A stretch of 64,000 nucleotides of DNA from Membranipora membranacea (lineage: Eukaryota > Bryozoa > Gymnolaemata > Cheilostomatida > Membraniporidae): positions 3,038,001-3,102,000 of the forward strand of contig OU612073.1 of the NCBI GenBank assembly GCA_914767715.1, given 5' to 3'. How positions within the stretch are numbered: position 1 is the first letter of the stretch; each line of letters begins with the position of its first letter. The position numbers and the translations under genes are program-made. Below, in pieces: positions 12,301 through 64,000 of the stretch. Below the pieces are notes generated by a model. It ran no database searches. It saw nothing but the letters and a program-made list of their open reading frames with translations, and was not told the origin of the DNA.

Positions 12301-12499
12301 TTTAGAATGATGTTTTGCCAGATAAATACGCTATAATAAACAATCATTATAAGAAACTAGAGTCTACGCTTTGTGACATTGTTAAATTTCTGGCTGCTCC
12401 CACTGACAAGAAAATTCTGCCCAAAACAATCTAGCAGAAAAATCTAATATGCAGTATTAATGCAGCTTTATATACAACAACTACAACAAACTAACAATA

Positions 12500-13226: not shown

Positions 13227-13400
13227 TATAATGAATCAAAGTACAGCTATCCGAGGGTTTAAATAATGCTTTTCATTTGAACATTAGTGGTCCAGGCAAG
13301 CACAATATTAACTTTGCTTAATTTTGCATACTGCCTCTTGCTCTTGCTCCCATATATACAGCCCTACAAATCATATCAATTTTATCAATTTATCAATTCT

Positions 13401-34539: not shown

Positions 34540-36042
34540 CTAACTTCCCACTCCGTCTACAGCTTGCAGTAAGGTGATATTGTCTCCTTTCAAAAGTATA
34601 CGACCTGCAAATAACATTAGTCCACATTTGTAATAATTCAACTTCTCAACCATGTAAGTTTAGGTGAATTGAATACAAAAAGTACTAAACCTATGATAAT
34701 CATATTTATTTGACTTGGTGATTGCAAATAATGGTGCAATAAGATCATGCAGAAATATTATTTTCGATATTACTAAATACGTCTGTTAGCTAAGGCATAC
34801 GATTCACCTTAGTGACATCAGTTGGAATAAAAACAGCTGAACCTGCATCCCCTAATAAAAATCTGACTTGGTGTAGAGCATTTCACAAAAACCAATTTGT
34901 ATGACTCAATGACTCAAAACCACCATGGTTTCCTCAACTTGAAACCACAAAGACAGAAGAAAAATGGCATAATATTCTATTCCACAATGTTCTTGTAATT
35001 GTTACACTATTCTGTTTACTAATAGCTTTATCTCCCGACTCTTAAACGGTCCAAGTATGACGTCAGCAAAACCTAGTTGCCATATATATATATTCAAATT
35101 TTGATAAACAAATAACCTGTTCAACTTTATATCATAATACACAGAAGTTTATTTTAATACGGGCCTTGGCAAAGTTCATCGGCATGTCAGTCAAATAAAC
35201 CCATCTTTATGGTGCAAAGCCTTACAGTTTTTTTATTTCATGTTCAGTGGCAATATCATTATCAACTCTGTTATGTTAATATCTTCGAAAAATAATTAAT
35301 CAATTGCCTAAAGGAAACTGAAACTAGTCATCACTTACCGAGAGTTTTCCTGTTTTTCGTCTTCTGATGGTATTCTTCAGCGTCATCCATTACGACGTTC
35401 ATGTACTCGTCGAATCCGACAATGATTCCTTCGATCCTCAGGTTCACATTCTCATAGAGCCACACTGAAATCCTGCTGCGGTTTTGCAGATACCGAAATA
35501 TCAGGTTCTGATATTGCCAAGTCAAGGAAAGTTTACAGTGAGTTATTATCAATACAACAATGCAATGAATTATGAACTATATATATGGTTCTAGGCTAAG
35601 TTAGCATTGTGAGTAATGAAGCTTCTTTCTTCCTTGAGAACAGAGTCTTTCACTACAACAATCATTCATATAATGAAACTGGATAAGACCACTCTACTGG
35701 CTGAGTCCACTGCTGCAGCTTGCCTCATGAATTTTCTTCTCTCATCATCATGGAACATACCATAGCATGTAGAAAGCATCACCTAAAATTGGTGCTAGGA
35801 CTAAGTAAGTAATAGTAATGTCTAAAGTCTTTTCTCTGATTAAATATTAGTTAAGTTAGGTTTCATATTTTTTTTCAATTATTATTAATTAATTGTCACT
35901 GTGAGTGACTGAGTGTAGATAAAATTGACCTTCAGTCAGTTCACAAATAATCCCATCTCATGGAATTGGCTGATCGATTGGTGTAAAAGGATACAATAGG
36001 TTGAACCATAACCTTCTGAACTTTCTGTGGTTTGTAAGCCAT
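34540..36042 (-). CDS. SNRPE: Small nuclear ribonucleoprotein E (SmE)
   Basis: Three exons: 36042-35995, 35507-35339, 34604-34540; 282 nt, 93 aa, against 92 in human. Exon 1 encodes [16 protein letters not shown]; exon 2 starts [20 protein letters not shown] and covers the Sm1 motif, with [15 protein letters not shown] (the conserved Sm1 end); exon 3 gives the Sm2 motif [15 protein letters not shown] and the stop. SmE joins SmF and SmG in the heptameric ring assembled on snRNAs U1, U2, U4 and U5 for pre-mRNA splicing. Intron 2 holds a 458-bp repeat also present in PARP4 intron 3. The gene is divergent from PARP4, whose proposed start is about 470 bp away. Confidence 0.97.
34632..35090 (+). 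repeat. Interspersed repeat, family B copy 1
   Basis: From TAATAATTCAACTTCTCAAC to CAGCAAAACCTAGTTGCCAT. More than 90% identical by eye to 38848-39278. This copy has about 26 extra bases near 34890. It lies in SNRPE intron 2, opposite to the gene's direction. No terminal inverted repeats found. Confidence 0.88.
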
Positions 36043-42500: not shown

Positions 42501-45500
42501 GTCTGGATGCTAAGTCCAGGGGCTAGAAAGTTATTGATAAGCTATTTTGTGCCTTCACTTTTGGTAAGAAAAGACATTATTATTTACAGGGTAAGCCAAT
42601 CAGGGAGTTGCGGGAGGTGGAGGATGCTCTTCACGCTGAACTCTTGTTTGCCAGCCTTCACACACACTATCAGACTATTCTCAAGTACAGGAAACTTAAC
42701 ACTGTGCCATTCCAGAAAGGCTCAGATAAACTACAGCAGGTAACTGTTATATACTTTGCAACATTTATTATGTTTCTTGATTGATCATTGTTGCATTTGG
42801 TTGCTCTATCCATAGTTGATATTTAAGAAGTTAGATGAATGAACAAATTTATGACGTCTAACATGTTAGCCTAGTATATATTCTCTGAATCTTCTTTTCA
42901 CTTCTTTTTTTTCTTTTTTAAATGTTCTCCAATTTTTTAAGTGTCATAGTCGTGCCCTCATTGCCACAAAGGAGATAATTCCATTGTATTGCATATACTG
43001 AGTTTCCTTGTTTGGGTCTGATTAACTTTTGTTGTTGATTTCTCTTACTAGAACTTTCCAGAGTACCTTGTGATTGCTATCAATTAGTTAAATACAGAGT
43101 ATCGATGTCAAGTATGGCAGAACCTTTTAGTAACTGAGATGCCAGTATTTTACCAATTTTTTCATCTTCATTTTGAAAGTTTGATCACAGCACCCTATAC
43201 AAATATTTCTCAGGGAATGAGACTAAAACCAAACATACATACATTTTGTTCGTCCTATATCTGTAGGAGTTATATTCTCGTTTTTATATGTTGTATACCT
43301 GTAGGCATGCAGGTAAAAGAACCCTCCTGTATGGTATAGCTCTATACAGGAGGACGCTGTCACCAACCACTGCAGCTCGGGCCTTGTAGCTCTATGCTGG
43401 GTTAAGGCTGTCAGTAGTTGAAGAATTTAAAACTAAGTCGTCACTATACAACCTTTTCCTAAGCACTGCACCTCAGTGCAGTCATCGTCTTTATAGGCAG
43501 ACAGCCATTATTATAGTTATGTATTATATGTGTAGGCGTTGTTCTCGTGGGCGTTAGATGACATCACACTATCACCAGCTGTCAGCTCATTAGTCGATAA
43601 GATCTGGAGTGAGGCTGTCGGCGAGATTGAGAGGAATCTGAGTATATCTGTATCCTCATTATCGAGATCCAGCGTAGAGGAGGCTGAAGGTAAGATCAAG
43701 GTTGAAGTTTCCAAGTACTTCCGGAATGATTTGACCAGAGTGTGACAAAAGAGATTTATTTTATGTCCAAACAAACATCCCTATAGGGTTCCGGTGATAC
43801 TAGCATAAATCTGAGTAGATATATATTGTTTATTCAGTCTGAAGAGAACTATTTCCACCCATTTATCCAGAGATCATCAAAGTAGCGACGATAGAAAATA
43901 TCTCGTTATTAAGAAATTTAGGCAGGGAGATTAATAAAAGGTCGATTGAAACAAAAAATGAAAGAAAGTAGTTTCAATTTTTATTACAACTATGATTTGA
44001 TGACTAGTTTGAAAACACTCTGTGAGCAGGTGTTACGTGGGTAAAATAACATTTCTCTAGCAATACCCTTGGCCAGAGAACCTAGGAATTTGAATAGTAG
44101 CTATACTCTATAACATGCCCTATTGTGAATAAGATTTCATGTATGCCTCCCTTTTTTCATCTCATTTCAGGAATCTTGGTTGAGTTGAAGGGCTTGTTGA
44201 CAAAAGAACGTAACCGTAACGAGGAGGTATCGATGAATCAGCTGAAAAATGACTTCAATAACACTCTACCATTCAAGAGTCATAAGGACATCCGATCAAT
44301 GAGTGATGTCACGAAGTACCTAAATGTTATTCAGGTGAGTGACTATAGATCACTTTGAGTTAGAATCGTTTGATTTTACATTTAAATTTTCTACAATCTA
44401 GCTGGCACGCCATTTATTTCAGGCAGGTCCTTGTGGAACAGGACTGAAAATTCTATGTATACACACCCCATATGCAGTTAAAAGTCCCCCCCCCCCCCCT
44501 TTCCCCTCTGCATCTTATAAATAAAAAGTAGCCCGATTTCCAGCCAGCAAGATTATAGATTATAGGGCGTCTACCTGTAATCTAGAGGGGATAACCCTCA
44601 CCACATTGAAGACTGAAGATGCACTTACGCTACAGATTTTCCCATCAGATTAGTTAGTCAGGTTTTACTTTTATATTGTTATATTAGCTATCATTTAGAG
44701 AGCAACCCAAAATTTGCATTCTGTAGCATTGGCACAAAACACAGATTTTTTAGTTGCTCCCAATAATAAACTTATATGTAAGCAATTATGCTGACCAAAT
44801 AATCTAGTGTAAAAGCACCTTTCAACCTAGATCACCGAGATGAGGTCTTACCAGCTTACGCACATGATAACATGCATCTTATTTCGGATATTAATTGATT
44901 ATTTTTGACAGCTGATGTATGACATGCTGAGTGTTGGCGAAGCTACAGATTGGACACTGAAAGCCACAACAAAGAACAAGCTTCGCTCGCTCAACTGTCA
45001 CATCGAGCTGATGTCACCTGACAACATGTACAATTATCACAATACAGTCGAGCACTGCAGGTTTGTAAAACTCAACCACTTCTGACCTCACCAGTGGGGA
45101 AATCAAAAATCATTTTTTATTTTAGTATTTATTATAATTACGTTGTTTTTACAAGTGCTTATTCTCTTAAATTTCAAGAAGAATTAGGTTTTTAAAAAGT
45201 GACTAAAATATACAAAGCGGCTTATCAGATAGTTCGAAACTAGAGATATGACAGCTCGTTCAGCACTCTGAGTCCCCGACAGCGGAGAGTGCTGCCAAGG
45301 GAACAGAAGGCAAACAATCAACTTCCATCTAGCTCCCACAGGCGAGCCGCCAATGTATACACGTATACACCAGAAGACTGATAATCATTGCTCATTTGTT
45401 TTGACATGACCTTGACAGATCTGGAAACCCCTAACTGGATCGACATCTTTCTATTAAATACTGTAATTCCAAATTGAGACATTTATCCCTGGCCGCAGCC

Positions 45501-48500
45501 ACAATCAAAGACCATTAAGTCATTTATTCATCCAGATATCTAAAATAAATCTCCCGCACATTAAAGACTATTTAGAATTAATGACTGAGTTACTGGAAAT
45601 ATGCTGTGGAAGGGAACGACTGAACCCCTTGTTTAGCAATGTCACAATGTTGGCGATTGAATTCATTATTGATCATGGTAATATTAATGGGTGATGATCT
45701 GTAAACTTGTCTTATGCAAAAGTGCCATAATTCATCTACAGGGAGGAAGCTGATGATATTGAAGTATTGAATATCTATCAAGTGACTAGACCATCTGAGA
45801 GTCGATTTAAGGAAGGATGGAATCACCTCTTCCATGCTTCCAGGCCAGAGAACTATCTTGGCATCCTTTCCAGGTAGGAAAAAAGATAGGCCATTCACAA
45901 CGTCTTTACAACATCTTCACAACGCCTTCACAGCGTGTTCACAACGTTCCCGCATATAGAAAAACTCACATTCATTTTCGTTTCATTTATAGCCTTGCTA
46001 CCCTGTGATACCTTGTGAGAACCCTTGATGTTACTCGTTTTGTTATTCTCTATCAGTACAGGTCTACCAAAGTTTTGTCAGATTTGCATAGTAAAAATTT
46101 CAAAGCTCTACTCGGCTTGAATTATTGATGGTAGGAAGAGTGCCTTTTATAATATAAGGGAATGTAACGCTCATTCTCTGCACCATGATGTCACTGTCTC
46201 CCAGAAGTGCTTGTTTCTTGTATTGCACATCCTTTAGACTGTGACATCATAGTGCAGAGAGTGAGTTACCTCATAAGTAATTGCCTGACTATAACATGCT
46301 TTGGTGTTTGGGTAGTCTTAGACTGGCAATGCGGATGAGGCGTGCACAGTTAGCGAGTATACCTTAAGCTCTCGCCTATCTCATCTTCAATCTGTGATTT
46401 TCTTATTCCGTGTAATTAGAGGTTTGATGATGCCTAAGCATGTGGTCGATGATTTGGGTGGGAAGAGAACTGATGCTGGAAATCTTGGAGCCGGAATCTA
46501 CTTTGCTGACAAGTTTAGGTATGTGGTATTTTGAAGACAGAAGTGTTTTTTTCTCGGAGTTGGTGATTATGGCTTTCACTCCTGTAACCACAGTCACAGT
46601 TATTAGAATAACGTCACAGTAACTTGTATAAACTTTAATATAGCAGGAATTCTAGGTCAGAAACAGTTACAGGCATATGGAAGTTGCTATAATGTAAAAC
46701 TTTTTGCATAGTCTTTGATCCTTATTTATTTTTTCACAGCACAAGCAATGGCTACACAAAGCCGTTCTCAGATAACACACGGCTGATGCTGCACTGTGAA
46801 GTGGTGACCGGTGCTGAATATGAGACCAGAGTAAGAATGCCTGACCTTACAGTGCCCCCTAGTGGGTACGACAGCGTGAGGGCAAAAGGCTCAACTGCTG
46901 ACATGGCTAGCGAGTTTGAGGTAAATGATCATTAATCAGCATTTTGCCTAACATTAGGAGATTGTCTTGACAATCTGATTGCTAACCTGTTTCCTTGCTT
47001 TATGTAACAGTCAACGAGTAAAATACGCCATAGCATCAACAAGGAGTTTGTTGTAGTCACTCGTATATATATATTTATTTTTTTTGTATCTAGCTATAAA
47101 GAAACATTGTAGATCAAGAGTAATAATTGTTCAAAATGAAGTAAATAAAAGCATGGGTCAGCCAGATAGCCTGTGACTAGAGTGGCGGCATACCCTCCAA
47201 CTTATTACAACAAAAAATCAGACAAACATCATGAAGAGCCCACACACATCATAAAAACGATTATATTCGCGATTGTCTAACAATACTGAGCTTTTTGTTG
47301 ACTTACATCCATGATTTCATCCCCCGCCCCCTCCTGCCTGCTGAAAAGTGAGCAAGTCTCTAAGTTAAACTTCCAATCTTTTTACAGAATAATGAGGATT
47401 GTGTGTATTCTACTGATGCGCAGCGTATAAGATATATCATAGAGTACACAACCGCTGGGGACAGAGCTAGAGGAGTTATCCCTCCTCTCCTGACGACGCT
47501 TCCTGAGGAAAGTGAAACTGAACCTGCCAACAATCACAAGTCAGCTCCTATAACAGGTGAGCTGCGCTGTCATTATTATTTATTAATATGTTAACACCAT
47601 AGTATACACCCATAAACATATAAATATTTATATGTTTATGTATACATCTTATAATAATTATATTAGTAGTAGTTATTTTCAAGACGGTTGACACTCAATT
47701 CCATATTGGATAAATAGATGGTTGAGTGTCTTGATTGTAGGTAAAGGCCCTATGGAAAAAAAATTAAATTTTTGATACTTTGTTCACTGTGGTTGCAAAT
47801 TCTTTTAGGTTTTATTGTAAATACGTTCTGCCAGCTGGCACTTGTATCTTGTATATGGAGCCAAACATGTCAAAGCCCATTGTTATTAGGTTATAACAAC
47901 TCTTGACAGCGAATGTTTCGACACAAAATACCTCACATAAATCCATCTCTATGTTTCTTTCTTGCATAGATGACATTAGTGGAAGGAAGGATGCCCTGTT
48001 GGACATCTTACCAGGATTACAGGCTGATGGGGATAAGCCCGTACCACTTAAGAGTATCAATGTTATAGCTAGTCTTGTGGACTTGGCGGCAGAGGTATGA
48101 GTGATGTAGTAGTATAGGTGAACTTAAATATATGCAAACCTAAATATATGTGATTTTAACAGTATGTGGACATTTTTACTTGTGAGCTTTTATATATGAA
48201 CCGTCCATTAGTTCAGCTTCCTTTTTGAGTGATCTGGCCTGTATCACTTCATTGAAGGACAAAGCTTTTGTCTGTAGCTGCAATCAAATATATCAAAATC
48301 AAATTAACTTATTCATTTTGAAGGTGACGGTACTGCAGGAGTATTTTAATAGCAGTGATGAGGCGATCGAAGCTAAGTTTGTATTCCCCCTCACTGAGAT
48401 GGCCGCTGTGTGTGGATTTGAGGCTTATATCAATGACAAACACATCGTTGGTCAGGTTAGCAATAAGTTACAAACATGGACACAATAATATATTTCTGAT

Positions 48501-51500
48501 TATTCAGTATCAATAATACTAATGTATGCCAAGATAAAACCGATTTAAATTTCAAAAGGCTCGAAAATATCACGCGAGTATAATTTCACATGATGACATG
48601 CACAAGATTTGGCCATAAAAGACCCAATTTTTAGTTTGCGAGCACGTCCTCTCGCTTAAGTTAAGTTGATTAATCATAGTCTGCTCATAATCAGTTTTTT
48701 TGGGAATTTTTGGTTTTACGCTTAGAAAATGTATCATTCATAACATATTCTTTGCTTTCCATGTGCCACATGTCACACATGTCACATCTATCACATATGT
48801 CACATATGTCACAATCTGTTCATTAATTCAGGTGAAGGAGAAAGAGACTGCACACAGAGAATACAGAGAGGCTGTCAGTAAAGGTCATGGTGCTTACCTA
48901 ATGGATCAGGACAAGGAAAGACCTGTAAGCTATTGTCAAATGATTAGTGTCCCATACTGTATCTTATATCGAATTGTGCCATAATACATCTGGCTGAAAA
49001 TTGTCCCCTAATATACCTTCTTTAGAATTGTCCTATAATGCAGCTAGTCTAGAATGATCACATAATGCTCCATATACAGTTTTCCCAAAATGCACATTGT
49101 CTAGACTTGGCCCACAGCACACCTAATCTAGAATGGTCACATAATGCTCAATATATAGATTTGCCCCATGATTCACCTAATGTAAATTTTTCCCATGATG
49201 GCATAATGCATGGTTAATAAAATATCCGATTCATCTCACATCAGCACGTCAGAACATATAAAAATATGATATCAGTTATCTGAACAGCAAACAAAACAAA
49301 ATCAGATCCCTCTTTAATTTTGGATAAGTCAAAACTTGATTTTGTACCAGTAACCTTCTGTAGATTGTGATTCTGACTTTGCTTTACTCATAAGTTCCCT
49401 TCATTCTTCTTAACTCTGTGTATTTTTATTATAGGATGTATTTACAGTGAGTGTTGGCAACCTACCGCCCCGCTCTCGATGTGTCATAAAGATCATCTAT
49501 GTTTGCGAATTAGCAGTGGAAGATGAGAAGTTGGTGTTTGAACTTCCCACCAACATCGCTCCGTGGAATGCCACACAGGCGCTGGCCCAAAGCACACAGG
49601 TATTGCTGAATATTAACTAGATCCTTTTGTGTCTGAGTATAATGTACCAAAGCTGGTTATAGTGCGTCTTTGGTCTGTTTTTTTGTGTGTCGGGTTCAGT
49701 CAAATGCGGGCGCTTATGATGAATACAATATGTTTTCTTAATGTAAATGAATGTGTGGTCGGAAACACATCAACACGCTCGGCAGCTTTAGTTGAAGTCA
49801 TCAAAAGAGTTTCCAGTCATTGTGAAAAAAAAAGGATGCAGATGTGTCTCGTTGGTATAGAGCCCCTCTCAACCACCACTATCCTGCCTAACTTGCTGTC
49901 TGGGCATTTAGACTAGCTGTATGGGCAGATATACTAGCTGTATAAGCTGATAGACTAGCTATCTGGGCGTGTAGTGTAGCTGTCTGGGCATGTAGTCTGG
50001 CTTTTGTCGTGTTATTTTTGATGCGGGTCATGACCAATCTTATGTGGTCTTGCTCGGTCTGAGGACATGCTTTTTACTTATTTTTGTATCAAAATTATGA
50101 GTGTTGTCGCTTACATTACAGACGACGGTCGGTGAGGTCAAGATGGATCACGACACAGTGAACAAAGTCATATGTGGTATGGTTTTGTCCGTACAAATGC
50201 CGTTTGATATTAGAGAGATCAACTGCCTTACCCACAAGACTGATATAAAGGTTGGTTTTTTACTGAATTGCCACCTTTACTGGATGCCCTGTTATAGATT
50301 CTTTCAGGAAAGAGCCATACAGAAGAAAACACTAGCCAGGTCTTGGTATGGTTAAAATAATTTATATTTAGAAACAATTATAACAACAAAACTAGCTGCA
50401 TGGCAAAGATAACTTATGTGTATAATTTATCTTAAATTTTGAATACAAAGGTGCAGAGGTTCCAACTTCAAATAGTTTGTTAACACGATTTATTGCTATA
50501 CTGTATGTAGAAAACAGCCACACAAGCCATGGTGAAGATGAGAGATGATCAATCATTGGACAGTGGGTTTACACTGACCATGACCTTAGCTGAGATCCAC
50601 GTACCGAGAATGATCAGAGAAAACCACCCAGATGGAACAGGCCTGCAGGTAATATATAACTATTTCATTTGTAGGCAAATCCAAATCACTCGGAGTAGGA
50701 GGTGGCTCAGTTGGTTAGAGCGCCGGTCTTCAGTGTAGTGTATTCAACTTACATGAGATATGCTGAGGTGTCCAGTATTGGTGCAACTTCTTTGTCTTCT
50801 ATCTTTCTCTTCTCCTCTCTAAGACAGCGTGATTATTAATGCCTCTTTCCCGGATGTAGCCTGAGTTCTTATGCAGCACTCTTATCTCTCTTTCCCTATT
50901 TACTACCTGCAGTCTATTATACCTTGCACTACATTCAGCACGCAAGTGTTGAAGGTTGTCGGTTCGATTCCCGCTGCAGTCCACTGACTACTGGGGATTG
51001 TTGCTCCGACCTGCCAACAAACTGAGAGCAATTTGGCGCTGACATTGCGGCCTAGCCCTTTAAGGCACCCCCATCTCGCCGCCCATTCTTCGGGATGCGG
51101 TGAGAAATGAAACCTTGTGATAATAACCAACGATTTTAACCAACATTGCTTGGTCTGACCTCATGATATACTCTTAAATTTATGGCTTGTTAGAGCATAA
51201 AACAAATCATGTAGCCTGGTATCTTCAATAGGAATTCGGTGTGAAAACCTGAGCTCAGATCAGAGGGGCAAGCACATGTTAGGTATTTAGCCCAAGTTGA
51301 CTCAGAGATACAAATCCTAATAGTGTAGTCTCTATGTCAGTTAATTCATATCTGCAATGAGTTTGCATAAAAAAAACTCCATCATGTTCTATTGCTTTCT
51401 TGTCTTAGCACATTGTTGATTATGTTTGAGTTGCTAGTTAGCTGGAAACCAACTTTTTTCCAAATGCAGGTGAGTCAGGCTTTCAATTTTGGAACTCAAA

Positions 51501-54500
51501 ACACTGCATCAATTCGATGGCTCCTGGGAGAAGTTAACCGACCTGTATTGAAAGGTGCGAGACGCAAAGTATTGTATATGTGCACGTTTATTTTTAGGCA
51601 TGTATGCTGACATTCTATCCAGAGTTTGACTGTGAAAGTCAGAATAATTATGAGATGATTATTCTTCTGGACATGAGTAACTCTATGTCTACAGATGACG
51701 TCATCAGTGTTAAGAAGATAGCCCTAGTTCTGCTCAACTCCATCAGCTCTATGGCTTCTTTTAATCTGATCATTTATGGCTCAAGTAAGTCAAAGTCTTC
51801 GCCTAATGTTAATCTGTACATAAAAGTCTCACACAGGTGTCCCACTCCCAAGCTAAATGGTTGATTGCATATTTAAAAAATGTATAATAAAATTGTCTGC
51901 ATGTTTTAGGTGTTCAGTCATGATCAAGTATGATCATCACACATAAACAATTGGCAAAATTTAAGGCAATGCCAAGCCCCATTTTTACCAGAATTTTTGT
52001 GCTGACATATAATCTTTGTTTTCAGCATATACCGAGCTGTTTCCAAAGTCTTTAATCGCAACTAAGAGTAGAATCAAGCTGGCCCAGTCGTTCATCCAGG
52101 TAAGTTCTAGCCGCAGAATAGAAATGAATAATGGACTGTCAAAAACTTTAAATTTTGAGAATTCTTTGAGATTGGATCTCTCTTTTGTTGTAATTGAGCT
52201 CTGAGTATGTTGCTATATTATAAGATATATCTCAGGAACACTGCTCATAAACAACAACGCTGAGATTCATGATAAAAAGTTTTATTGAAAAACAACAGAA
52301 ACAAGTTTTACACTGCAAAATATTTCAATGTTCGATTTGACCAACTTAGAATGTGTTTGTAGGACTGCGTCCCGAAACAGGGAAATACCAACCTACTGAC
52401 ACCTTTACAGAACCTGTCGCTGCTGTCAGACCAGTGTCGACATCGTAACATTGTCGTTATATCGGATGGTCACATGACCCATTCACAGTCTACATTACAG
52501 GCTGTCAGTGACATGTCGGGTACTGTCAGATTATTCACTCTGGCTGTCAGGTGAGTCATGTCACAGTCAGCTTATCTTGGTTACAATTCAATAGCAAGTT
52601 GTTGTCTCAGCGCTACTAATGATCTGAAATGTCGACGTCAGGTCATGATGTGCTCATAGGTCACGTCAGTTTTGAGTTGATTGTTCATATTTGTGTATTC
52701 GTATACTTTAGTGAATTTAACAGTCAATACTCGCTCAACACTTCTTGTGAAACATATAGGCTATATACACAATGCCAGCGCTATGATCATGCAGATCTTG
52801 AGTAGCTCTTTTTGACAGATGGTTCTAGCATCACTCTTTAAAATATCTTGGTCTGTGACATAGTTTGGGACTAATTGTAGTGCTGATGCCAACAGATATG
52901 CCATGAGGGAATTGGCGAGACTCGGCTCTGGAGTATCCGAGTATTTCAACCCAAAAGCTAAATCCAAGTGGTCGAAACAGGTACAAGTGCTCTTTAAACC
53001 CTAGAGTATTTGTATTCAGCAATATTCTAACAACGTTATTTTCAAACCTGGAAAGAAAATGAGATTTTTGGTGTTAAGCCATGAGTAGGCTGTGGTTGTG
53101 ATCATCAACTCCATTTGGTGTTGCTGGTCTCACTGTTTTCCAATAAAACAACAATAATCTTAGGAAGATTATTGCTCATAGTATCAATTCAACTTCTGCG
53201 GCTATTTTTCTGATATTCTGAGTGTGAATATTTTTAAGTGATAGAAAGTGACAGAAACAGGTTTTTGGTATCATTTAGGAGTTCTCAGCCTATTTTAGAC
53301 TGGGTACTTTAGAATGTTACCAGAAATCTGATTCTGTCACAATAGCTTTAATTATTTAAAATCGCTACTTTTACTGTGCAAGTGATTTGTATGTTTCCAG
53401 ATCAAAGGAATCGTTGAGAAAGCCGGGCAACCATTGTTGTCGCAAGTCAAAGTTATATGGCAAGAGCAGGACACCGATTTCCCTGATCCAATACAAGCTC
53501 CAGTCTGTGTTCCTTCGCTGTACAATGGTAACAGGGTTGTGGTGTATGGATTCACCTCCGATAACTGCTTCATGGTGAGAAATGTAGAATTAAGGCTAAG
53601 TCGATCCTTTAAACTACCCTAGAGGAATAAACATAAGCTGGTGCTTAGTTTATCTACTGTGGGAGTGAATGAGTTTTACGATTGCAGTGATAAATATGAT
53701 GTATTATGTAACTCTTACCTCTATCTCATTGAAAACACATCCCTGAATTATAACAATCATTGTGTAGATATATGTAGTCTCGTTTCTTCCTTGTAGGCCA
53801 CATTGAAGGCTGTTATTGATGGACAAGAGGTGTCTACTGTGGTGTATGCCTCCCCTCTCTCAGCCAGTACAGGGCTCACAGTTCACAGGCTTGCAGCTAG
53901 GGCTGTGATTCAAGACTGGGAACATGGCTGCTTATCTGCTGATCCCATTGAACATGTGGTAAGATTTGATTTATACATGAGATGACAATGTGACATTACA
54001 GTATGACATGACTTTGTGATTTAACATTGTGACATGAAATTGTGACATGACATTATGACAAGACATTGTGACAGCAAATTGTGACATGACATTGTGACAG
54101 CAAATTATGTCAACATGTTGTGATACAACATTGTGACATTACACTGTGACATGACATATATATTGACATGATATTGTGACAAAACATTGTGAAATGACAG
54201 TGTGACATGACGTTGTGATATGTATATGTCTCAGTGATATTCCTCGTGTTTCAGACAAAGAAGAAAGCCTCTAAGAGAGCTATAATAGAGATGAGTAAGG
54301 AATACTCTATAGTGACTCAGTTCACCAGCTTCGTAGCTATTGAGGAACGGGACGAAGAGGAGAAGATGAAACTAGCACAAGGACCAGACAGCACAGGTAG
54401 TTTGAGCTTCCTATTAATAAAACAAAAATCATGAAAGTTAAGACTAACTTATCCCCACCATGCAAAAAAAAGAAAAAAAAAAGAAAATGTGGGTTAAACT

Positions 54501-57500
54501 GCAAGTTTTTGTCTCTGTCCAAAGACTGAGAAATAAAGGTGCCTTAAGTTCGCAGCTGCCAAATTCGGCGCCAAGTTGCTCTCAGTTTGCAGGCAGGTCG
54601 GAGCACACCTGGGGCGTCAATTGCGCCAAGTTTTAAATCTAGCCGATCTCCTATAATTTATTGTCGATATGATTCCAGGTTGAAGTTGCGTTCTGGGAAT
54701 TTTGTGTTGATGAGATGTCATTGGGGTATTAAATCAACATTCAGACATGGCCTTAAATTAGCCATGCATGGGTTGATTTAAGACCAGAGGTTGTCCTACC
54801 TATCAGTGAGTAGGGTGGTGATATCAAAGTAGTCAATGTTATGCTTCATGTTAGTGATTGTTGCCTAATATCAGTAAGGATATCCCATAACTTCTCATGG
54901 CCTTCAATATCAGAAATATACCCACTCACAGATGATTGGGCTTAAACGATCCTTGAAAAAATACTCTTGGTGTTATACCCTTACCTTCCTCTATTTGCAC
55001 TGTGTTTTTAATTTCCTTTAGGGCCAACAGTTGAAAGCCTCCTGGATAAACATACAACAGATTTGCTGCCTTACATGGCATATGGAGCTTCGGGTGGTAA
55101 GTGCTTTGTATCATCAGACTTATATCGATAAATATATATCTGGATGGGTCAGGTGGGCCAAAGGTTAAACGTGCGTACTTGGGATACATGATGTCTTAGT
55201 TCAATCCCCGAGCCAGCAGACATACTCAACTTGGTACTGGTACAGTGTTCATTGCTGCCAGGTCTCTGCAGAATGGGGCTTAAAGTACCCAAGGTCCACT
55301 GTACGTTTGCATATCCTGCATATAGAAGAAAGATCCCCCTCTGCCTCTTCATTATAAAAAGTAGCATGGCTTGAGAACTATGTGTCTTAACACCTGTACT
55401 CTAGAGGGGATAACTCTTCCCGCAGCGAAAACTTTGAATTATATTATTATTTAACAACTACTCATACACGCTTAGAATTTAGCACGATTACGCGGCGACA
55501 GATAGACATCCAACTTACTCTCAGCAATTGATAACTTTGGTTATGAAATAACAACTTAACCTTTGGAACATTCTGATCTCAACTAAAATTTGTAGCTTTT
55601 GATATTCACAAGACAACAAGACAAGTTTAATTTTTCCTCTTTAAAGCCTGGTACCCATCAACTGTATAACTGTCCCAAGAACTCATCTGCGATCATGCAC
55701 TACTACTTGTGCATTGCTGTGATTGATGGGTACAAAATACACAGAGATCGTGCGTTTACAAATACCTTCGCACGAAAGTAGAATTGATTCTACTTTCGTG
55801 CGACATGTTGTGCGATATGTTGTGCTGCATTTTGTGGAACCCACAAGTTCTTTAATGATTGCCAGTGCAAAATCTTAGAAATTCCTGAGATTAAAAAAGC
55901 ACATTGGTGGGTACAAGGCTTAATGATTCTATATTGTCTACATTTTCAGCAACAGGCACTATAGAAATCAAAATCAGAACTTTGACTGGTAGAACTTTCC
56001 CTGTCCTGGTAACAGCAAATATGACCGTGGAACAACTCAAATCGCAAGTGATGGAAATGGAAGGGATTCCAAATGATCAACAGAGATTAGTATTCGGCGG
56101 AAACCAGGTTAAGAAAATAATTTAGCTAAAATGACATGTTTTGGCTAACCATATAACATGGTTGAAAAATAAAAATTTTGATTGCATTGTGTCATCTGTA
56201 ATAAAGTTAGAAGAATTGGGTATTTGTAGGGACAACACCACTTTTCCAGCGTATTTATCCTCGTAGTGATTTGAAATTTGGACTCGCACATTATAAAATA
56301 GACAGGTTTCTGAGCTCTGATTTAGGCCTCAATTTGGAATTGTCCTCTCTCCGGTGCTGAAAAGAGGGTTATCTTGAAAACCGCTTTTAATAGGATAAAA
56401 ATTATTTTTGATTCAGAATCTGCAACATTGAAAACTTATAAGGACATAGTTTGGGTAATAATTTCAGTATTTGGATAGTAAATTATAGCATTTTCCGCCT
56501 GTTTTCCGGACAATTTGGCAGAATCTTTCATGAGTTAATCACTTAAATTAAGATTTATCAACATTAAAGCCTCCAATGATTTGGAAACCCTGTCTCACAA
56601 GGTTTTCAATGGTGCAGACTCTGAATCAAAAATCGTTTTTATCCTAACATTAGCGGTCTTCAAGATAACCCTCTTTCAGCAGGTTTTTCCTATGCGGCGT
56701 GGGTTAAAAGTACCAAACTGGAGAGAGGACAACTACGAATTGAGGCATAAATAAGAGCTCAGAAAACTGTCTATAGCATGGAGAATCCACATGTTAGGTT
56801 TTAGAAACTCACAGAGCTCTGTTGCCCTACCAAAAACATTTTTCATCCCTCCCCTTCCCATCAAAAGTTTTGATTTTTTTTAAATGTGGGTTTTTAGTGT
56901 GAGTATATAATGTGAGTATATATTAATATATATCTGCATATTACTACAGATTAATGATATATGTATAGGGTAATCACAAATATTATTAATTAACAGCTAG
57001 AAGATTCTCGTGAGCTGGGAGAGTACGGAGTTAAGAATGATAACTCCCTACATTTGGTGTTACGTCTGCGCGGTGGTGAAGGACCAAGTGAGTCCTTTAT
57101 TCCTTATTCAGGGCTGGAAGTCAAGCGGGGGCCGGGCTGTCGGGTAGGGGGGCAAGATCTTGGGGAGGGGGCTCAGACTACATTGGAAGCATTAGGATCT
57201 TAGATTGACGATATCGGTTGCAAATCAAATTGTTACACATGGTATGTTATATACGGTTAATACACTGCCATAGCTAAGTGTATTTATCTGGATATTATTG
57301 TGCATTTTTCGCGCTACCCATGCATTTTCGTGCATTTTTTTTCAATACTCTTTTTCCTTCCTGTTAGGATATTTTTGTTGATAATGTCTCATAATGCATA
57401 TACCTAGGAGGAGTTAAGTATTTGCAGGATAAATGGCTCAAAACCGTGAAACTTCTGGCTTGCTAAAATATCATCAACCTCTTAACTTTGTAGAAACTGC

Positions 57501-60500
57501 GACCTTAGCATGCAAATATTTGTGTGAGCTGATATTAAGCCACACCTGAACAACTGACCTATGGCCAATATTCACTAGTTTAGGATAATCAGAATATGTC
57601 AATGGACGTTCAAAGGACACAACTCGTTTAGTTAAATTGAGAAGATGGTACCCAGGTAAACTCCTTTCAAAGTTTCGATTTGTTCAAGCTGTTGACTGTG
57701 TGATTTGTTTTATATCTCTAGGCCCGGCTGTTCGCGCAAGTTCGAGTTCAGGTTCAAGGTCAAGGTCAAGTGAATCTGATGGTACTACATATGATGGTGC
57801 CTTTTTTGATGATTCAGATGACTGTGATGAGTCAGATGAATGGGATGATTCAGATGAGTGTGATGATACGGCTCCAAAAGTCAGTTGATAAATTTTCCAA
57901 TAATTCATTCATCATTATTATCATAGAACACTTAAGATTTTGTGACAGAACAAGACACTCAAATTCATACGAAAACTAATAATGCCTCATGGACAAAATA
58001 AGCAAAAGTGTTCGCTATGCTATTGCTATTTTTTGCAGCCACTTCAGCTCAGTGGAAGATAGGGTGTCCCGAAACAACTGGCCTTTGACTAATATGATTT
58101 AGTCGGAGCTGAATCTTCAAATATGCTATCAAATGTAGCTCCTACAGCGTTTTAATATTAATTTTTAATTTATATAATATTTAATTTTGATATCTAGTCA
58201 GATTTATATCCGACATTAAAATGTTACCCCTTGACCATTGTATTTTTTTTACTTAACTCCTATTTTTAATTTTTAGGAGGAAGAAGCAAAGATAACGAAT
58301 TTCAAATGTTCGGCTGTTGATCTATTTGGTGAGATCATACCGGACGACGAAGGCTTTGACCTGGAGACTAGAAAGTCAGCACCAGCAACAGGAGCGGTGG
58401 TAAGTTCGGTTCCAAAAATGTTCCATGGACATTATTAGCAAACTTTACGGCCGAATATATTATCATCTCAAATGTGAAGAGCTTTGTGAAAATATATCGT
58501 AACGGTTATTAGCCAAGTGATTAATCTTACATTCATTATTTATTATCTTATTATTATATTATATATTATTATAATCACAATTGTTAACAATCATTTATTG
58601 TTGAAGAGCTTTGTTAAAAAAATACCATCACAATTATTTTACTTGGTTATAGCTTAATCTTTTTCCATTCAGTGTTCCCGTTTGCTTACCTGGTATTTAT
58701 TAAGAGGCAGATACAGTTTCTTATTGGTACATTGTGTTCTTTTTGCGTATATGGGTGTTTCTCATTTGGAATAGGGCGGCTCCATATCTGATGACTCGGA
58801 AGATGACGAAGGCTTTGATTTTTTTTCCGCTCCGAGAGCTGCTGCAAAATTTGTTCCCCTTTCTCAGTCTATATCTGATGACTCGGACGACGACGAAGGT
58901 TTTGACCTGGATTCTGCTCCGAGAGCTGCTGCAAAACTTGTTCCCCTTTCTCAGTCTATATCTGATGACTCGGACGACGACCTCGAAAGTTATGACCTGG
59001 ATTCTGCTCCGAGAGCTGCTGCAAAACTTGTTCCCCTTTCTCAGTCTATATCTGATGACTATGACGACGGCTATGTCATGGATTCCATTCCGGTAAGAGC
59101 TAAGAGGGTATTATGTTCTTCAAAGTTTTCAAGTTTTAGTTTTTTATTCTAAATTTGAATGGATGTGAGTTATTTTCTCCATGGTGTTGACAAGAGTTAA
59201 TGCTTACAGTGCATGATAAAAAATGACTCAAAGAGGATATTATTAAAATGTGATGTAAAATGATGGTTTTGAACTTACATAGCCCCGGTTTAAGAATATT
59301 GTTGCAGCGAGATATGGGGTCTACTATGATTTCTGAAAATACAATGATAAGAGAATGTGTTGGATCATCAGCTATTTTCTCTTGCTTGTGTTCATTGAAA
59401 GGAGTATTAGCTGGAAATTCAGCTAGGTGAACAAGAGAAATGGCCACAACCTCTCAAAGTAGAACATAAGTGTTATAAATATGATTGCATGAAGCATATC
59501 ATTGTATCACAAACTAGTATGTATATTTTAGTCTCATATCAGCGTTTTCTCTTCATAGGTCGCAACATGTAGTGTGCTCAGAAAGGAAGAACCAAGAGAA
59601 GAGGCCAGAAAATCACCACCAGCAACAGGAGCGGTAAGTTCAGTACCAGAAAATATTCCATTGACAGCTTTATCAATCAAACTTTGCTGCCGAATAAACT
59701 ATCATCACAAATGTGAAGAGCTTTGTGAAAATATATCGTAACGGTTATTAGCCAAGTGATTAATCTTACATTCATTATTTATTATCTTATTATTATATTA
59801 TATGTTATTATAATCACAATTGTTAACAATCATTTATTGTTGAAGAGCTTTGTTAAAAAAATACCATCACAATTATTTTACTTGGTTATAGCTTAATCTT
59901 TTTCCATTCAGTGTTCCCGTTTGCTTACCTGGTATTTATTAAGAGGCAGATACACGGACGACGACAAAGGTTTTGACCTGGATTCTGCTCCGAGAGCTGC
60001 TGCAAAACTTGTTCCCCTTTCTCAGTCTATATCTGATGACTCGGACGACCTCGAAGGTTATGACCTGGATTCTGCTCCGAGAGCTGCTGCAAAACTTGTT
60101 CCCCTTTCTCAGTCTATATCTGATGACTCGGACGACGACGAAGGTTTTGACCTGGATTCTGCTCCGAGAGCTGCTGCAAAACTTGTTCCCCTTTCTCAGT
60201 CTATATCTGATGACTCGGACGACCTCGAAGGTTATGACCTGGATTCTGCTCCGAGAGCTGCTGCAAAACTTGTTCCCCTTTCTCAGTCTATATCTGATGA
60301 CTATGACGACGGCTATGTCATGGATTCCATTCCGGTAAGAGCTAAGAGGGTATTATGTTCTTCAAAGTTTTCAAGTTTTAGTTTTTTATTCTAAATTTGA
60401 ATGGATGTGAGATATTTTCTCCATGGTGTTGACAAGAGTTAATGCTTACAGTGCATGATAAAAAATGACTCAAAGAGGATATTATTAAAATGTGATGTAA

Positions 60501-63500
60501 AATGATGGTTTTAAACTTACATAGCCCCGGTTTAAGAATATTGTTGCAGCGAGATATGGGGTCCACTATGATTTCTGAAAATACAATGATAAGAGAATGT
60601 GTTGGATCATCAGCTATTTTCTCTTGCTTGTGTTCATTGAAAGGAGTATTAGCTGGAAATTCAGCTAGGTGAACAAGAGAAATGGCCACAACCTCTCAAA
60701 GTAGAACATAAGTGTTATAAATATGATTGCATGAAGCATATCATTGTATCACAAACTAGTATGTATATTTTAGTCTCATTCAGCGTTTTCTCTTCATAGG
60801 TCACAACATGTAGTGTGCTCAGAAAGGAAGAACCAAGAGAAGAGGCCAGAAAATCACCACCAGCAACAGGAGCGGTAAGTTCAGTACCAGAAAATATTCC
60901 ATTGACAGCTTTATCAATCAAACTTTGCTGCCGAATAAACTATCATCACAAATGTGAAGAGCTTTGTGAAAATATACCATCGCAATGGTTATTAGCCAAG
61001 TGATTTATCTTACTTCATTCATTTTAATAATATGTAATGTAATTATAAAATATTTTATGATATTCATTATATTATCTTATTATTATCATATATATATTAT
61101 TATTTTTAGGTGTCTATCTAATTGATATTTTATTATTATTTTAACTTACTATTATATATATAGTATTATTGTTAGGTGTCTATCTAATCGTTATTATATT
61201 AACTTATTATTTTATTATATATTATTACTGTTATCTGTCCATCTAGAATAATTTTTTTTTCTTTACTTCAGATGACACAACACAGCGCTAGTAGAGTACG
61301 CGCAGTAAATTTTTCCGGAACTTTGGATGAGGAGCTCTATGATGATGGGGAGCTCTATGATGATGGGGAGCTCTGTGATTATGAGGAGCTCAGTGATTAT
61401 GAGGTGCCCGAGCCTACATATGAAAGGACAAGCTTATCTTTTTCTGCGGATTCCTCAGCACCTAAGGTAAATCACTATGTATCATTCAACAAACTATATT
61501 CATGCGCATTTGTCTGTTTGTACAAGCCTTAAATTTTGGTGCTGGGAGATATTGCTAGTGAATACAATGTATTGGTGGCAAATTAGACTGATACTGACCA
61601 TTGTTAGAACTGGAGCTATCACATTTCGATATTGTATGATTCAACACAGGCAGGTTTATATCAGAGAAATCGATCGATAAATTCCTGTTAATATAGTAGT
61701 TGTCTTTCCGTTCAACAGGGTAGACAACTAGGATACAAAAAAGGTCCGATAACATAAGGTCTCACGGGTTGTTTTGTAATATATTATCGGTATCCTAAAA
61801 GAGAAACAGCCCTTGTGTGAATCTGCTCACCGATATCCTGACCATATCCCAGAAACTACTATCAAATTCAGCTTAAATATGGCCTATATCGACCCTCTGA
61901 TATCAACCCATATTGATCAATGTCGTTAGATCGTGAATCACTTTTAAACCTGCTTATACTAACAACACTGTGAACCATAGAAATAGAGCTAAGTGGAAAC
62001 CTAGACCGCTCTTGGGAGTCGTCCCACTTTTTGCCAATCACCTGTATATAAGAAATCAGTGGTAGGGTTTCTTTCAAAAATGAAATTAGATGCACTTGCT
62101 GAGATACTAACCCACTATCCTTACTACTATCTGGGTGTAACAGGAATTTTTTTCTGGACATTGAAATTCATCAAGATAACAGGCTGTCCCTACCAATGAT
62201 TGTGGTTAACCAGTAATAACAAAAACCGCAAATACTGGTTAGGCATCTATGTATCGATGTCTATGCTGTGAACACATCTTGTATTTTAGCAGCAGCGGCA
62301 GCAGCAAGTGCTGAAGGAGAGCACATCCTCTGTAGAAGTGAGACCGAAAATGGGCCAAAAGACAAGTATTAATCCGAATGTAAGTCTATGGTGAATTTTC
62401 TTGTGTTTCCCCAAAATAAAAGTCTCCCTCAACAGGGCTTAGTTCTCCACCACCGTGACTGCTATATGTCAACCTCCGCATTGATTCATTTATTTGAATT
62501 CTTCGGTTTGTCAATATACAGTGGAAGCTGGTTAATTCAAACTTTATAATTCAAAACTCCTGTTAATTCAGACAAGGAAATTTGGTCCCTTCAACCAGAT
62601 CTCAATGCATTCTGATGTCACTTAATTCAGACATTGCTTAATTAGAACAAATTTTTGTGGTCCCGAATGGTTTAAATTAAGTGGACTTCACTAAATCTTG
62701 GAATAGTGGATATCCATCTTGGGGACTGTAACCTTGCTACAGACAATCTTTAACCTGCTTTCACTATCGCTCTCTGAGGAAGTTTTATTTCTTCTATACC
62801 TCAGCTAACAACTCGTAAAGGTGTCGTCACTGAAAACCTACTGGAAAAACTAACTAACTCGATGAAGGACCGAGGGATCACCTGTGCTCCTTCTCTGACA
62901 GAACAATCTGAAACACTATCAGCTTACTCACCAACATCCCCTTCATACTCACCAACATCCCCTTCATACGCCCCAACGTCTCCATCATACTCCCCAATGC
63001 AAACAATGCAGAAAAAGAAAAGAAAACCGATGAGTGGGAAAGCAGAGGGATTTAGTACTGCATTAGTGGGTGATGCACAGTTCGGATCTGCACAAGTTCA
63101 ATCGCAATCAGCAGCAGCACCGACACCAGGTGCTGGTTTTGGTTTTGGATCTGCACCAATGGGTGGTGCACTCTTCGGATCTGCACAAGTTGAGTCGCAA
63201 TCAGCAGCAGCACCGACAGCGGCTGCTGGTTTTAGTTTTGGATCTGCACCAATGGGTGGTGCACTGTTTGGATCTGCACAAGTTGAGTCGCAATCAGCAG
63301 CAGCACCGACAGCAGCTGCTGGTTTTGGTTTTGGATCTGCACCAATGGGTGGTGCACTGTTTGGATCTGCACAAGTTAAGTCGCAATCAGCAGCAGCACC
63401 GACAACAGGTGCTGGTTTTGGTTTTGGATCTGCACCAACGGGTGGAGCACTGTTCGGATCTGCGCAACAAGTTCAATCGCAATCAGCAGCAGCACCGACA

Positions 63501-64000
63501 CCAGGGGCTGGTGTTGGATCTGCACCAATGGGTAGTGCACTATTTGGATCTGCACAAGTTGAGCCACTATCAGCTGCAGCAGAACGGCCACCAGGACCTG
63601 GCTATGGAGGGGGAGCTGCCTCGTTTGGTTCTGCACAACTTCTGCAACAACGGGAGGTTATGGGAGGTATTCAGCAGATGAATGGATCTAGAGTTCAAGA
63701 AAGTTCTACGTTAATATCACAAGAATTTTTGGCGACAAATACCAAACCATTATCACGTGGTCCGACCTCTGGTTTCGAAGAAACCTACCAAAGATCAATA
63801 TCACATGCCTTGACAGACATGACTGGAGTACCACCTCAATCACATCCACCACCTCCCCCATATCTTGCCCATAAAGTTGGTCAAGTCCCAGGTCGAGAAA
63901 ATATACCCAATAGATTCATGGTCATACCACCACCACCACCTCAAAGAGTTGTACAGCAAGGTATACCACCCCCAACTGGTGAACATGAACATCCCCAACC
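36516..64000 (+). CDS. PARP4: PARP4 (vault PARP) with internal ubiquitin domain and repeat-rich tail; 3' end outside window
   Basis: Exons: 36516-36525 (proposed), 37250-37444, 37905-38119, 38293-38488, 39825-39961, 42086-42202, 42590-42739, 43536-43689, 44171-44334, 44912-45060, 45742-45873, 46420-46518, 46740-46920, 47388-47556, 47970-48094, 48324-48455, 48832-48924, 49435-49599, 50122-50250, 50511-50648, 51598-51784, 52026-52099, 52363-52550, 52881-52980, 53401-53574, 53797-53958, 54255-54396, 55022-55096, 55950-56107, 56997-57087, 57722-57879, 58277-58399, 58775-59092, 59559-59633, 59912-60334, 60800-60874, 61272-61466, 62290-62379, 62805-end. About 2,285 codons, all in phase. Domains (residues): BRCT about 90-190, WGR-like about 250-310, PARP helical domain about 340-470, ART catalytic domain about 490-660 with the H-Y-E triad (LFHAS, GAGIYFAD, NNEDCVYS), VIT about 690-880, vWA about 950-1130 with intact MIDAS (DMSNS, GNTN, SDGH), ubiquitin 1322-1397, acidic repeats about 1400-1855, CTD-like heptads, FG repeats, Pro-rich tail. 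Known PARP4 is a mono-ADP-ribosyltransferase of the vault particle. The start ATG is tentative. Confidence 0.93.
37460..37558. other. Intronic inverted repeat around a 14-G run
   Basis: CCAATGTGTTGGCTCTGATT and the following GGTGGATGGG pair with CCCACCCATCAATCAGAGCC and AACACATTG across a poly-G run. PARP4 intron between the exons ending at 37444 and starting at 37905. Probably a small foldback or an inverted duplication. Confidence 0.75.
37905..38488 (+). other. PARP4 BRCT domain exons
   Basis: The two exons read FADKIYVVEFISRVSFKEKS, KIKSHGGTISHILNKK, SAVIISDQECVESYKCRKAL and VLSAGYIHECVIEGSL. The Gly-Gly after the first helix and the aromatic Y..ECV near the end fit a BRCT fold, as at the N-terminus of human PARP4. 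Here about 85 residues precede it, whereas in human PARP4 the BRCT is at the extreme N-terminus. The extra segment is basic and Leu/Ser-rich, with no domain recognised. Confidence 0.8.
38848..39278 (+). repeat. Interspersed repeat, family B copy 2
   Basis: Partner of 34632-35090; lies in a PARP4 intron and in the same genomic orientation. Lacks the 26-bp segment of copy 1. Each copy is followed by an AT dinucleotide run. Confidence 0.88.
39962..42085 (+). other. Large PARP4 intron with several repeats
   Basis: Contains: a diverged tandem duplication sharing GTAGAAATGAGACACC (about 40070-40215 and 40225-40340); a GCCTGACTATAACATGC repeat at about 40808 that recurs at 46282; a pogo/Tigger-like fragment at 41185-41310; and the GC-rich hairpin repeat at 41802-41858. 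No exon was seen. Confidence 0.6.
41802..41858 (+). repeat. GC-rich hairpin repeat, copy 2
   Basis: CTCTCGCCCGGGGGGCCGTC followed by GGGCGAG, then AAAAGTCTGGGGGGCTCAGA. Best match to 26435-26486. It lies in PARP4 intronic sequence. Confidence 0.7.
44455..44640 (+). repeat. SINE-like repeat, tail family
   Basis: Shares CCTCTGC-TCTT, ATAAAAAGTAGC, CACCTGTA-TCTAGAGGGGAT and AACTC-like blocks with 55330-55430. A C-run of about 13 lies near 44486. Intronic in PARP4. Confidence 0.6.
50698..51125 (+). mobile_element. tRNA-derived SINE, interrupted
   Basis: Starts GGAGGTGGCTCAGTTGGTTA GAGCG (box A TGGCTCAGTTGG). Box B GGTTCGATTCC lies at 50961-50971, about 250 bp away rather than the usual 30-40 bp, so roughly 190 bp (about 50738-50930) interrupts the tRNA-like head. 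The tail carries GACCTGCCAACAAACTGAGA and CGCCGCCCATTCTTCGGGAT, parts of which recur at 54570-54610 and in the 18.7-20.6 kb duplication. Lies in a PARP4 intron. It is not a functional tRNA. Confidence 0.75.
53985..54235 (+). repeat. Irregular TGTGACATGACAT minisatellite
   Basis: About fifteen degenerate copies of a 12-16 bp ATTGTGACATGAC unit in a PARP4 intron. A shorter CACATATGTCACA array occurs at 48766-48815 in another intron. Confidence 0.8.
54545..54612 (-). repeat. SINE tail fragment
   Basis: CGCCAAGTTGCTCTCAGTTT and GCAGGCAGGTCGGAGCACACC are the complement of the tail of the 50698-51125 SINE and match the ends of the 18.7-20.6 kb duplication. Confidence 0.65.
55148..55440 (+). mobile_element. 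tRNA-derived SINE, second family
   Basis: The tRNA-like head has a box A-like TGGGTCAGGTGGGCC and a box B-like AGTTCAATCCCCGAG at about 55199-55213. The tail matches 44455-44640 (ATAAAAAGTAGC, CTCTAGAGGGGATAAC). Intronic in PARP4. Confidence 0.65.
55645..55920. mobile_element. PIF/Harbinger-like MITE before the ubiquitin exon
   Basis: 276 bp with inverted ends AGCCTGGTACCCATCAA and, on the other strand, AGCCTTGTACCCACCAA, flanked by TAA on both sides (55642-55644, 55921-55923). A 3-bp TAA duplication is typical of PIF/Harbinger MITEs. It contains a perfect 34-nt palindrome (CGCACGAAAGTAGAAT and complement) at 55769-55802. It ends 30 bp before the exon that starts the ubiquitin domain. Confidence 0.85.
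55961..57077 (+). other. Ubiquitin domain inside PARP4 (two exons)
   Basis: Coding parts 55961-56107 and 56997-57077 encode 76 residues collinear with ubiquitin: it starts IEIKIRTLTGRTF, contains EGIPNDQQRLVFGGNQLEDS, and ends SLHLVLRLRGG, followed by EGPS. Retained: L8, R42, V70, H68, R72, R74, G75, G76; I44 is V. Lysines: K6R, K11R, K27 kept, K29Q, K33M, K48N, K63N. Residue 1 is Ile because the domain is internal. In phase on both sides. Confidence 0.95.
56301..56771. mobile_element. Foldback MITE, TA target site, copy 2
   Basis: 471 bp with ends GACAGGTTTCTGAGCTCTGA and ...CAGAAAACTGTC, flanked by TA (56299-56300, 56772-56773). Shares the internal blocks AAAGAGGGTTATCTTGAAAA and GTACCAAACTGGAGAGAGGA with 12500-13226. 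It lies in the intron that splits the ubiquitin domain. Confidence 0.85.
58460..60960 (+). repeat. Recent 1.24-kb tandem duplication spanning PARP4 exons
   Basis: The block containing exons 58775-59092 and 59559-59633 is repeated as 59912-60334 and 60800-60874, with introns nearly identical (for example CATATCATTGTATCACAAAC in both). The encoded unit is about 29 residues: SISDDSDDDEGFDLDSAPRA followed by AAKLVPLSQ; copy 1 has three units, copy 2 four, each closed by DDYDDGYVMDSIP. Copy 2 has lost the original exon acceptor by a deletion joining AGGCAGATACA to CGGACGACGAC. Confidence 0.92.
61969..62272 (-). repeat. Interspersed repeat, family A copy 2
   Basis: Reverse-complement partner of 603-915. 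It ends in GATGTCTATGCTGTGAACAC. It lies in the PARP4 intron before the Gln-rich exon at 62290. Confidence 0.7.
62519..62690 (+). mobile_element. pogo/Tigger-like MITE
   Basis: Starts CAGTGGAAGCTGGTTAATTC and ends AATTAAGTGGACTTCACTA, an imperfect inverted repeat, with the CTCCTGTTAATTCAGACAAG motif common in pogo/Tigger-type ends. A partial copy is at 41185-41310. PARP4 intron. Confidence 0.65.
62925..62999 (+). other. RNA polymerase II CTD-like heptads in PARP4
   Basis: In the PARP4 frame the codons read YSPTSPS, YSPTSPS, YAPTSPS, then YSPM. Two are perfect consensus Pol II CTD heptads and the third has one change. They are followed by QTMQKKKRKPMSGK, whose KKKRK is a good monopartite NLS candidate (about 63010-63027). 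Confidence 0.93.
63070..63650 (+). other. FG-repeat region of PARP4
   Basis: Tandem units of about 33 residues: GAGFGFGSAPMGGALFGSAQ followed by VESQSAAAPT, five to six copies. The FG dipeptides in Ala/Ser/Gly/Gln-rich spacers resemble nucleoporin FG repeats. Human PARP4 also has FGxxP-type C-terminal sequence before its MVP-binding end. The 203-codon frame at 63070-63681 in another phase is a shadow kept open by the repeat. After it comes a Pro-rich stretch (SHPPPPPYLA, MVIPPPPPQR) that stays open to the window end. Confidence 0.9.

Follow-up and report, generated by a model that had tools for sequence, protein, structure and literature searches.

The PARP4 locus

The window (the whole stretch of 64,000 nucleotides that was analysed) contains on its forward strand a gene of the bryozoan Membranipora membranacea which, judged from its alignment to the human protein and from its domain order, is the orthologue of PARP4. 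Its exons were called by eye and checked by script. Within the window, 30 exons form one open frame, which gives a model of 1450 residues; when the model is continued beyond the window with further downstream genomic sequence, the hand-called exons number 41, all GT-AG, and join into a single open frame of 2613 residues that ends at a stop, with AG at the 41 acceptors and GT at the 40 donors. The model begins at position 37250, the first coding exon or exons lying upstream and outside of it. The end of exon 30 was shifted from 57883 to 57879, which keeps the frame open, and exon 34 was given a start (59912) that likewise holds the frame open; this exon, which lies in a duplicated stretch, is the least certain call. 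Elsewhere in the window are found a Snf7-domain exon (PF03357; 10101-10460, forward strand), which we take to be CHMP1-like, an LSM-domain exon (PF01423; 35340-35540, reverse strand), presumably of SNRPE, and two copies of a dispersed repeat (34623-35091 and 38839-39278), 90% identical over 470 aligned bases.

Exons 1-27 (37250-55096, GT-AG throughout and in open frame) encode the core of the enzyme. The Pfam matches of the 1450-residue model are BRCT, PARP, VIT and VWA, together with ubiquitin at residues 1320-1391, and the order of BRCT, ART, VIT and vWA is that of PARP4; the helical domain (PARP_reg) scored 20.1 bits with a cut-off of 26.8, and no WGR family is among these matches. Human full-length PARP4 (PDB chain 11jf_P) aligns with model residues 96-1309 at E = 3.8e-197, so the core is alignable nearly throughout. 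The catalytic triad of the human enzyme is given as H438/Y477/E547 (PMC10711553), and these numbers, placed on the alignment by counting, fall on His523, Tyr563 and Glu632 of the model (45833-47396, with codons starting at 45833, 46499 and 47394, respectively); the H-Y-E and the threonine at human position 484 are thus retained. In the 339,339,785-base assembly (18 contigs), where the window is bases 3038001-3102000 of contig 9, a search with the VIT-vWA region returned 14 listed matches, all of them from this locus, so that one copy of PARP4 was seen, and no relative was found when bacterial and archaeal genome contigs were scanned with the VIT region. Common to the bryozoan gene and PARP4/vault PARP (clade 5) as known are the BRCT, the H-Y-E, VIT and vWA, a long linker and a probable C-terminal MVP-interacting domain; human PARP4, however, has no ubiquitin domain at the place discussed below, and the bryozoan tail differs in its acidic, CTD-like and FG repeats.

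The ubiquitin module

The sequence-only reading had placed a complete ubiquitin domain with an intact LRLRGG inside PARP4, on two exons. Both of these, exon 28 (55950-56107) and exon 29 (56997-57087), are present with AG/GT borders, and their frame is continuous with that of the PARP4 exons on both sides, those downstream (EGPS...) as well as those upstream, the last of which, exon 27 (55022-55096), encodes the end of the ITIH-like region (LLPYMAYGASG) and has a phase-1 donor. Completeness holds for length, since all 76 residues are there, and fails for identity, as only 39 of the 76 match the species' own polyubiquitin; the LRLRGG is indeed intact, the last ten residues, LHLVLRLRGG, being unchanged. 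Ubiquitin residues 1-76 correspond to model residues 1318-1393 (codons 55961-57077), with residues 1-49 on exon 28 and 50-76 on exon 29, where E-G-P and a phase-1 donor follow; the intron between them (56108-56996) is in phase 0 and separates Q49 from L50. Chance similarity is excluded, because PF00240 is matched over 1-72 of its 72 positions at E = 1.7e-20 and the PDB matches (the best 60 of 404) are all ubiquitin or ubiquitin-derived chains by name, Affilin being a ubiquitin-derived protein. As predicted from the gene model, an in-frame, spliced and diverged ubiquitin module is thus encoded within the bryozoan PARP4 gene, and its place is the linker that joins the core, catalytic and ITIH-like, to the long repetitive tail.

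That human PARP4 lacks such a domain, as had been supposed, is borne out at the corresponding place. When residues 900-1422 served as the query, the alignment with the human protein reached no further than residue 1310 (human 1212) and stopped seven residues short of the ubiquitin domain, and the human C-terminus (1193-1724) matched no ubiquitin chain in the PDB at E up to 0.001, its only match being chain 11jf_P, from which the sequence used differs at 5 residues.

A symmetric-phase exon unit is the usual mark of exon shuffling. Both outer introns of the module are in phase 1, making it a symmetric 1-1 unit, and the pair of exons (158 and 91 nt, 249 nt together) can for that reason be gained or skipped without a change of frame. 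Its origin may accordingly be pictured as an old ubiquitin copy that would have been shuffled as exons into a phase-1 intron. The same symmetry and length would also permit a clean removal, and it is possible, although unlikely, that the exons behave as an in-frame cassette that is skipped in most transcripts, the main form of PARP4 then being devoid of ubiquitin. In leave-one-out splice scores the acceptors of exons 28 and 29 rank 18 and 27 of 41 and their donors 37 and 25 of 40, and it is the weak donor of exon 28 (GTTAAG) that speaks for such skipping, whereas the exons contain neither frameshift nor stop, and a protein conserved over changed codons, as described below, argues that the domain is or was translated.

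Several other origins were considered and rejected or disfavoured. A separate or stand-alone ubiquitin gene, or a retrocopy, does not fit an exon-28 frame that has no Met before the domain, is spliced in phase, stays open into exon 30 and runs into the tail. A recent copy of polyubiquitin is contradicted by the best DNA match to the module, 41 bp at 78%, and by the differing intron positions: in the species' own polyubiquitin and UBA52 types the coding sequence breaks near codon 34-35 (as seen at L011, L033 and L034), and the RPS27A-type exon starts there. The intron of its NEDD8 genes (L036 and L054) interrupts codon 50 and is two bases away from the 49/50 break of the PARP4 module. An origin from NEDD8 is nevertheless disfavoured, as position 72 is Arg and not Ala, and as, where ubiquitin and human NEDD8 differ, the domain has the ubiquitin residue at 11 sites and the NEDD8 residue at 4. 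Rad23 was the sole NCBIfam match, at 34.2 bits against a cut-off of 207.3. Finally, the palindromic repeat in the inner intron (about 56298-56774) proves nothing about a transposon-carried capture, as another copy lies in the same window at 12496-13230; a further copy of this family follows the polyubiquitin gene (L011, 3221-3761).

The 37 changes relative to the species' own ubiquitin are unevenly spread, with identities of 8/21 in residues 1-21, 4/13 in 22-34, 14/18 in 35-52, 3/14 in 53-66 and 10/10 in 67-76. Under a uniform model, which takes no account of residues fixed by the fold, the absence of any change from the last ten residues has P = 6.7e-4, and from the last six (71-76) alone P = 0.015. 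At the DNA level, 6-8 of the last ten codons differ from each of seven complete polyubiquitin repeats, and the peptide LHLVLRLRGG has therefore been kept while its silent sites changed, although part of this silent change may predate the fusion of ubiquitin with PARP4. The extent of divergence (37 of 76 residues) could be taken to mean that the module is a non-functional insertion in decay; this we regard as very improbable, since few of the changes fall in residues 35-52 and none in 67-76, the frame and splice sites are intact, and all 14 positions of the ubiquitin core that were examined are still hydrophobic.

Six of the seven chain-forming lysines of the domain are lost, including K48 and K63 (both to Asn), with K27 kept (one-sided P = 0.046), and the lysines now present are at 4, 27 and 62, of which K4 and K62 are at new places. 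In the hydrophobic patch L8, H68 and V70 are kept while I44 has become Val, alongside the K48N change; the I36 patch (L8, I36, L71, L73) is retained, as are R42, R72 and the LRLRGG with which the fold ends, and Gly76 is directly followed by Glu77, not by Pro. Mutational scanning of yeast ubiquitin names R42, I44, K48, G75 and G76 as the sensitive sites (PMC4862753), and of these R42, G75 and G76 are kept in the PARP4 domain, I44 is Val and K48 is lost. For ten mutation-sensitive sites drawn from that paper, 8 of 10 are kept as compared with 31 of the 66 others, a difference that is not significant (P = 0.052) and reaches 0.017 with K48 set aside post hoc.

For comparison, PF00240 was matched at least 28 times in the species' own genome. 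Seventeen of these comprise the exon in PARP4, polyubiquitin-type repeats or ubiquitin exons, and matches of the RPS27A, UBA52, NEDD8 and FUBI types; the other 11 are other ubiquitin-like domains, which are named here by their sequence. The ends were read exon by exon, so that an intron near the end of a domain could mislead, and the frame was readable past the match in 9 of the 11 (L038, L039, L043, L045, L046, L047, L049, L051 and L052), L048 and L053, where it was unreadable, being left out of the comparison. RGG is kept in one of these nine integral domains, L051, presumably ZFAND4-like, which reads AMRGG and then Pro, whereas the precursor types (polyubiquitin, UBA52, RPS27A, FUBI, NEDD8) keep the GG. 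LRLRGG with a residue other than Pro after it thus occurs, among these own-genome matches, in no internal domain but that of PARP4. The same search brought up a partial ubiquitin exon (L050, G000:C4:2495637) some 3 kb ahead of the polyubiquitin array, which stops after GKQLED and adjoins a second copy of the polyubiquitin first exon (L041); L050 is a truncated duplicate.

The tail and the probable vault tether

The tail that follows Gly76 comprises 1220 residues and begins with Glu-Gly-Pro-Ser; it continues with a stretch rich in Ser, then with acidic repeats, heptads of the CTD type and FG repeats (15 FG pairs). Exons 30-37 (57722-62379) encode the Ser-rich and acidic linker with its repeats, which is partly duplicated: a tandem duplication of about 1.2-1.5 kb of tail exons and introns relates 58364-59816 to 59601-61066, at 92% over 1478 aligned bases, and the duplicated stretch (58364-61066) encodes acidic SISDDSDDDEGFDLDSAPRAAAKLVPLSQ repeats. 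The second duplicate lacks the acceptor that precedes the acidic-repeat exon in the first copy and seems to use another. Exon 38 (62805-64000, continuing past the window to the window-equivalent position 64443) is Pro-rich and carries three heptads like those of the RNA polymerase II CTD (YSPTSPS, YSPTSPS and YAPTSPS, at 62925-63000), with the FG repeats later in the same exon.

Beyond the window (64875-66344, locus L009), the last exons resemble the human MVP-interacting domain, with which they share RLELGxDW; BLAST aligned 29 residues at E = 1e-5 as a single comparison, and the score of 63 was reached in 0 of 2000 shuffles, the maximum among which was 53. Searches of this C-terminal end against Pfam and, with E limits of 1 and 10, against the PDB gave no matches. 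The bryozoan tail probably ends in an MVP-interacting domain. The Arg of the motif corresponds to human Arg1689, when counted on the human C-terminus, and Arg1689 is described as the centre of a conserved patch of that domain (PMC10450202). The same source suggests that, in the linker ahead of the MVP-interacting domain, a fast-evolving stretch under positive selection could in some species be a site of viral cleavage or modification that alters the association with vaults (PMC10450202). With the ubiquitin domain located in the linker ahead of the probable tether, a cut after Gly76 would part the enzyme from it, and cleavage would gain a plausible purpose, as the tail set free would carry the probable vault-binding domain at its end.

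Models for the function of the internal ubiquitin

In the model that we put forward tentatively, and to which we would give somewhat less than an even chance, the ubiquitin domain of PARP4 serves as a hinge cleavable by deubiquitinases. The C-terminus would tether intact PARP4 to the vault, and a USP/UCH-type enzyme would cut after Gly76, at the putative scissile bond between the Gly76 and Glu77 codons (57075-57077 and 57078-57080). This would free the ADP-ribosyltransferase core, now ending in a ubiquitin whose diglycine is free and which could not be extended through K48 or K63. The products predicted by the sequence-only reading, a PARP4 core with a free diglycine and a released tail, do follow from the sequence, and its description of the arrangement as the reverse of UBA52 is apt, as the ubiquitin would end the upstream product. 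UBA52, RPS27A and polyubiquitin likewise have LRLRGG followed by a non-proline residue and a downstream extension, but the PARP4 domain differs from these precursors in the 1300-residue enzyme on its N-terminus, in its identity of 39/76 and in that it is the upstream product that would carry the ubiquitin.

Integral ubiquitin-like domains commonly serve as docking modules, and a second model, which we rate a little below the first and as distinctly possible, holds that the domain stays uncut and acts as a built-in monoubiquitin, whose patch docks ubiquitin-binding partners such as the proteasome, p97, ESCRT or autophagy receptors, the scarcity of chain lysines keeping the signal unextended. 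Consistent with that, L8, R42, H68, V70 and the I36 patch are retained, I44V is conservative, and the loss of lysines fits a signal that must stay single, although those at the new places, K4 and K62, could still be modified. Docking, however, has no need of G75-G76, which are absent from 8 of the 9 other readable integral domains of the genome, and the residue after Gly76 is Glu, not Pro. Pro after the diglycine blocks deubiquitinases. The cleavable hinge is favoured slightly over the uncut monoubiquitin because G75-G76 and their non-proline neighbour have been kept while about half of the domain changed. It has to be noted that residues 67-70 also serve the fold and the hydrophobic patch, and the argument from the conserved end rests for this reason mainly on 71-76. 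Furthermore, the ZFAND4-type domain, also integral and with an RGG, ends in AMRGG instead of LRLRGG and precedes a Pro, which shows that an RGG may be kept where its context is not cleavable, a point against the hinge. Both I44 and K48 lie near the face gripped by deubiquitinases, and with I44V and K48N among the roughly half of the residues changed, recognition by these enzymes may be weakened.

Arg72 steers a ubiquitin fold to the ubiquitin E1 rather than to that of NEDD8, and the species' own NEDD8 (L036/L054), with the same fold, a GG and an intron near codon 50, differs from the PARP4 domain in having A72 in place of R72. In a further and unlikely extension of the hinge model, PARP4 freed by a deubiquitinase would be a self-made modifier of the ubiquitin fold, and UBA1 with an E2/E3 would attach the whole ADP-ribosyltransferase covalently to target proteins or to the vault. 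Were this the case, PARP4 would be a writer in one piece that is itself a conjugated tag, not extendable via K48 or K63.

The link between clade-5 PARPs and ubiquitin is not in itself new, since there is a partial precedent in two clade-5 PARPs of Acanthamoeba castellanii, reported to contain ubiquitin-related domains (Perina 2014, PMC4245714). These belong to an amoeba, not to an animal, and the likeness is drawn from the text description, which names neither the type of domain nor a processable LRLRGG. For animals, no PARP4 with a ubiquitin domain was found among the titles and abstracts listed by the literature searches, one of which covered the best 10 of 366 hits, and a scan of viral contigs with exon 28 found no relative. 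If these readings are correct, the bryozoan PARP4 would be an example from nature of a protein that combines ADP-ribosylation with ubiquitin, and its internal ubiquitin would be unusual in that its end is ready for conjugation while most of its chain lysines are gone. If the domain is processable, ubiquitin placed exactly between the enzyme and its tether would constitute a concrete and testable switch for the release of PARP4 from the vault.
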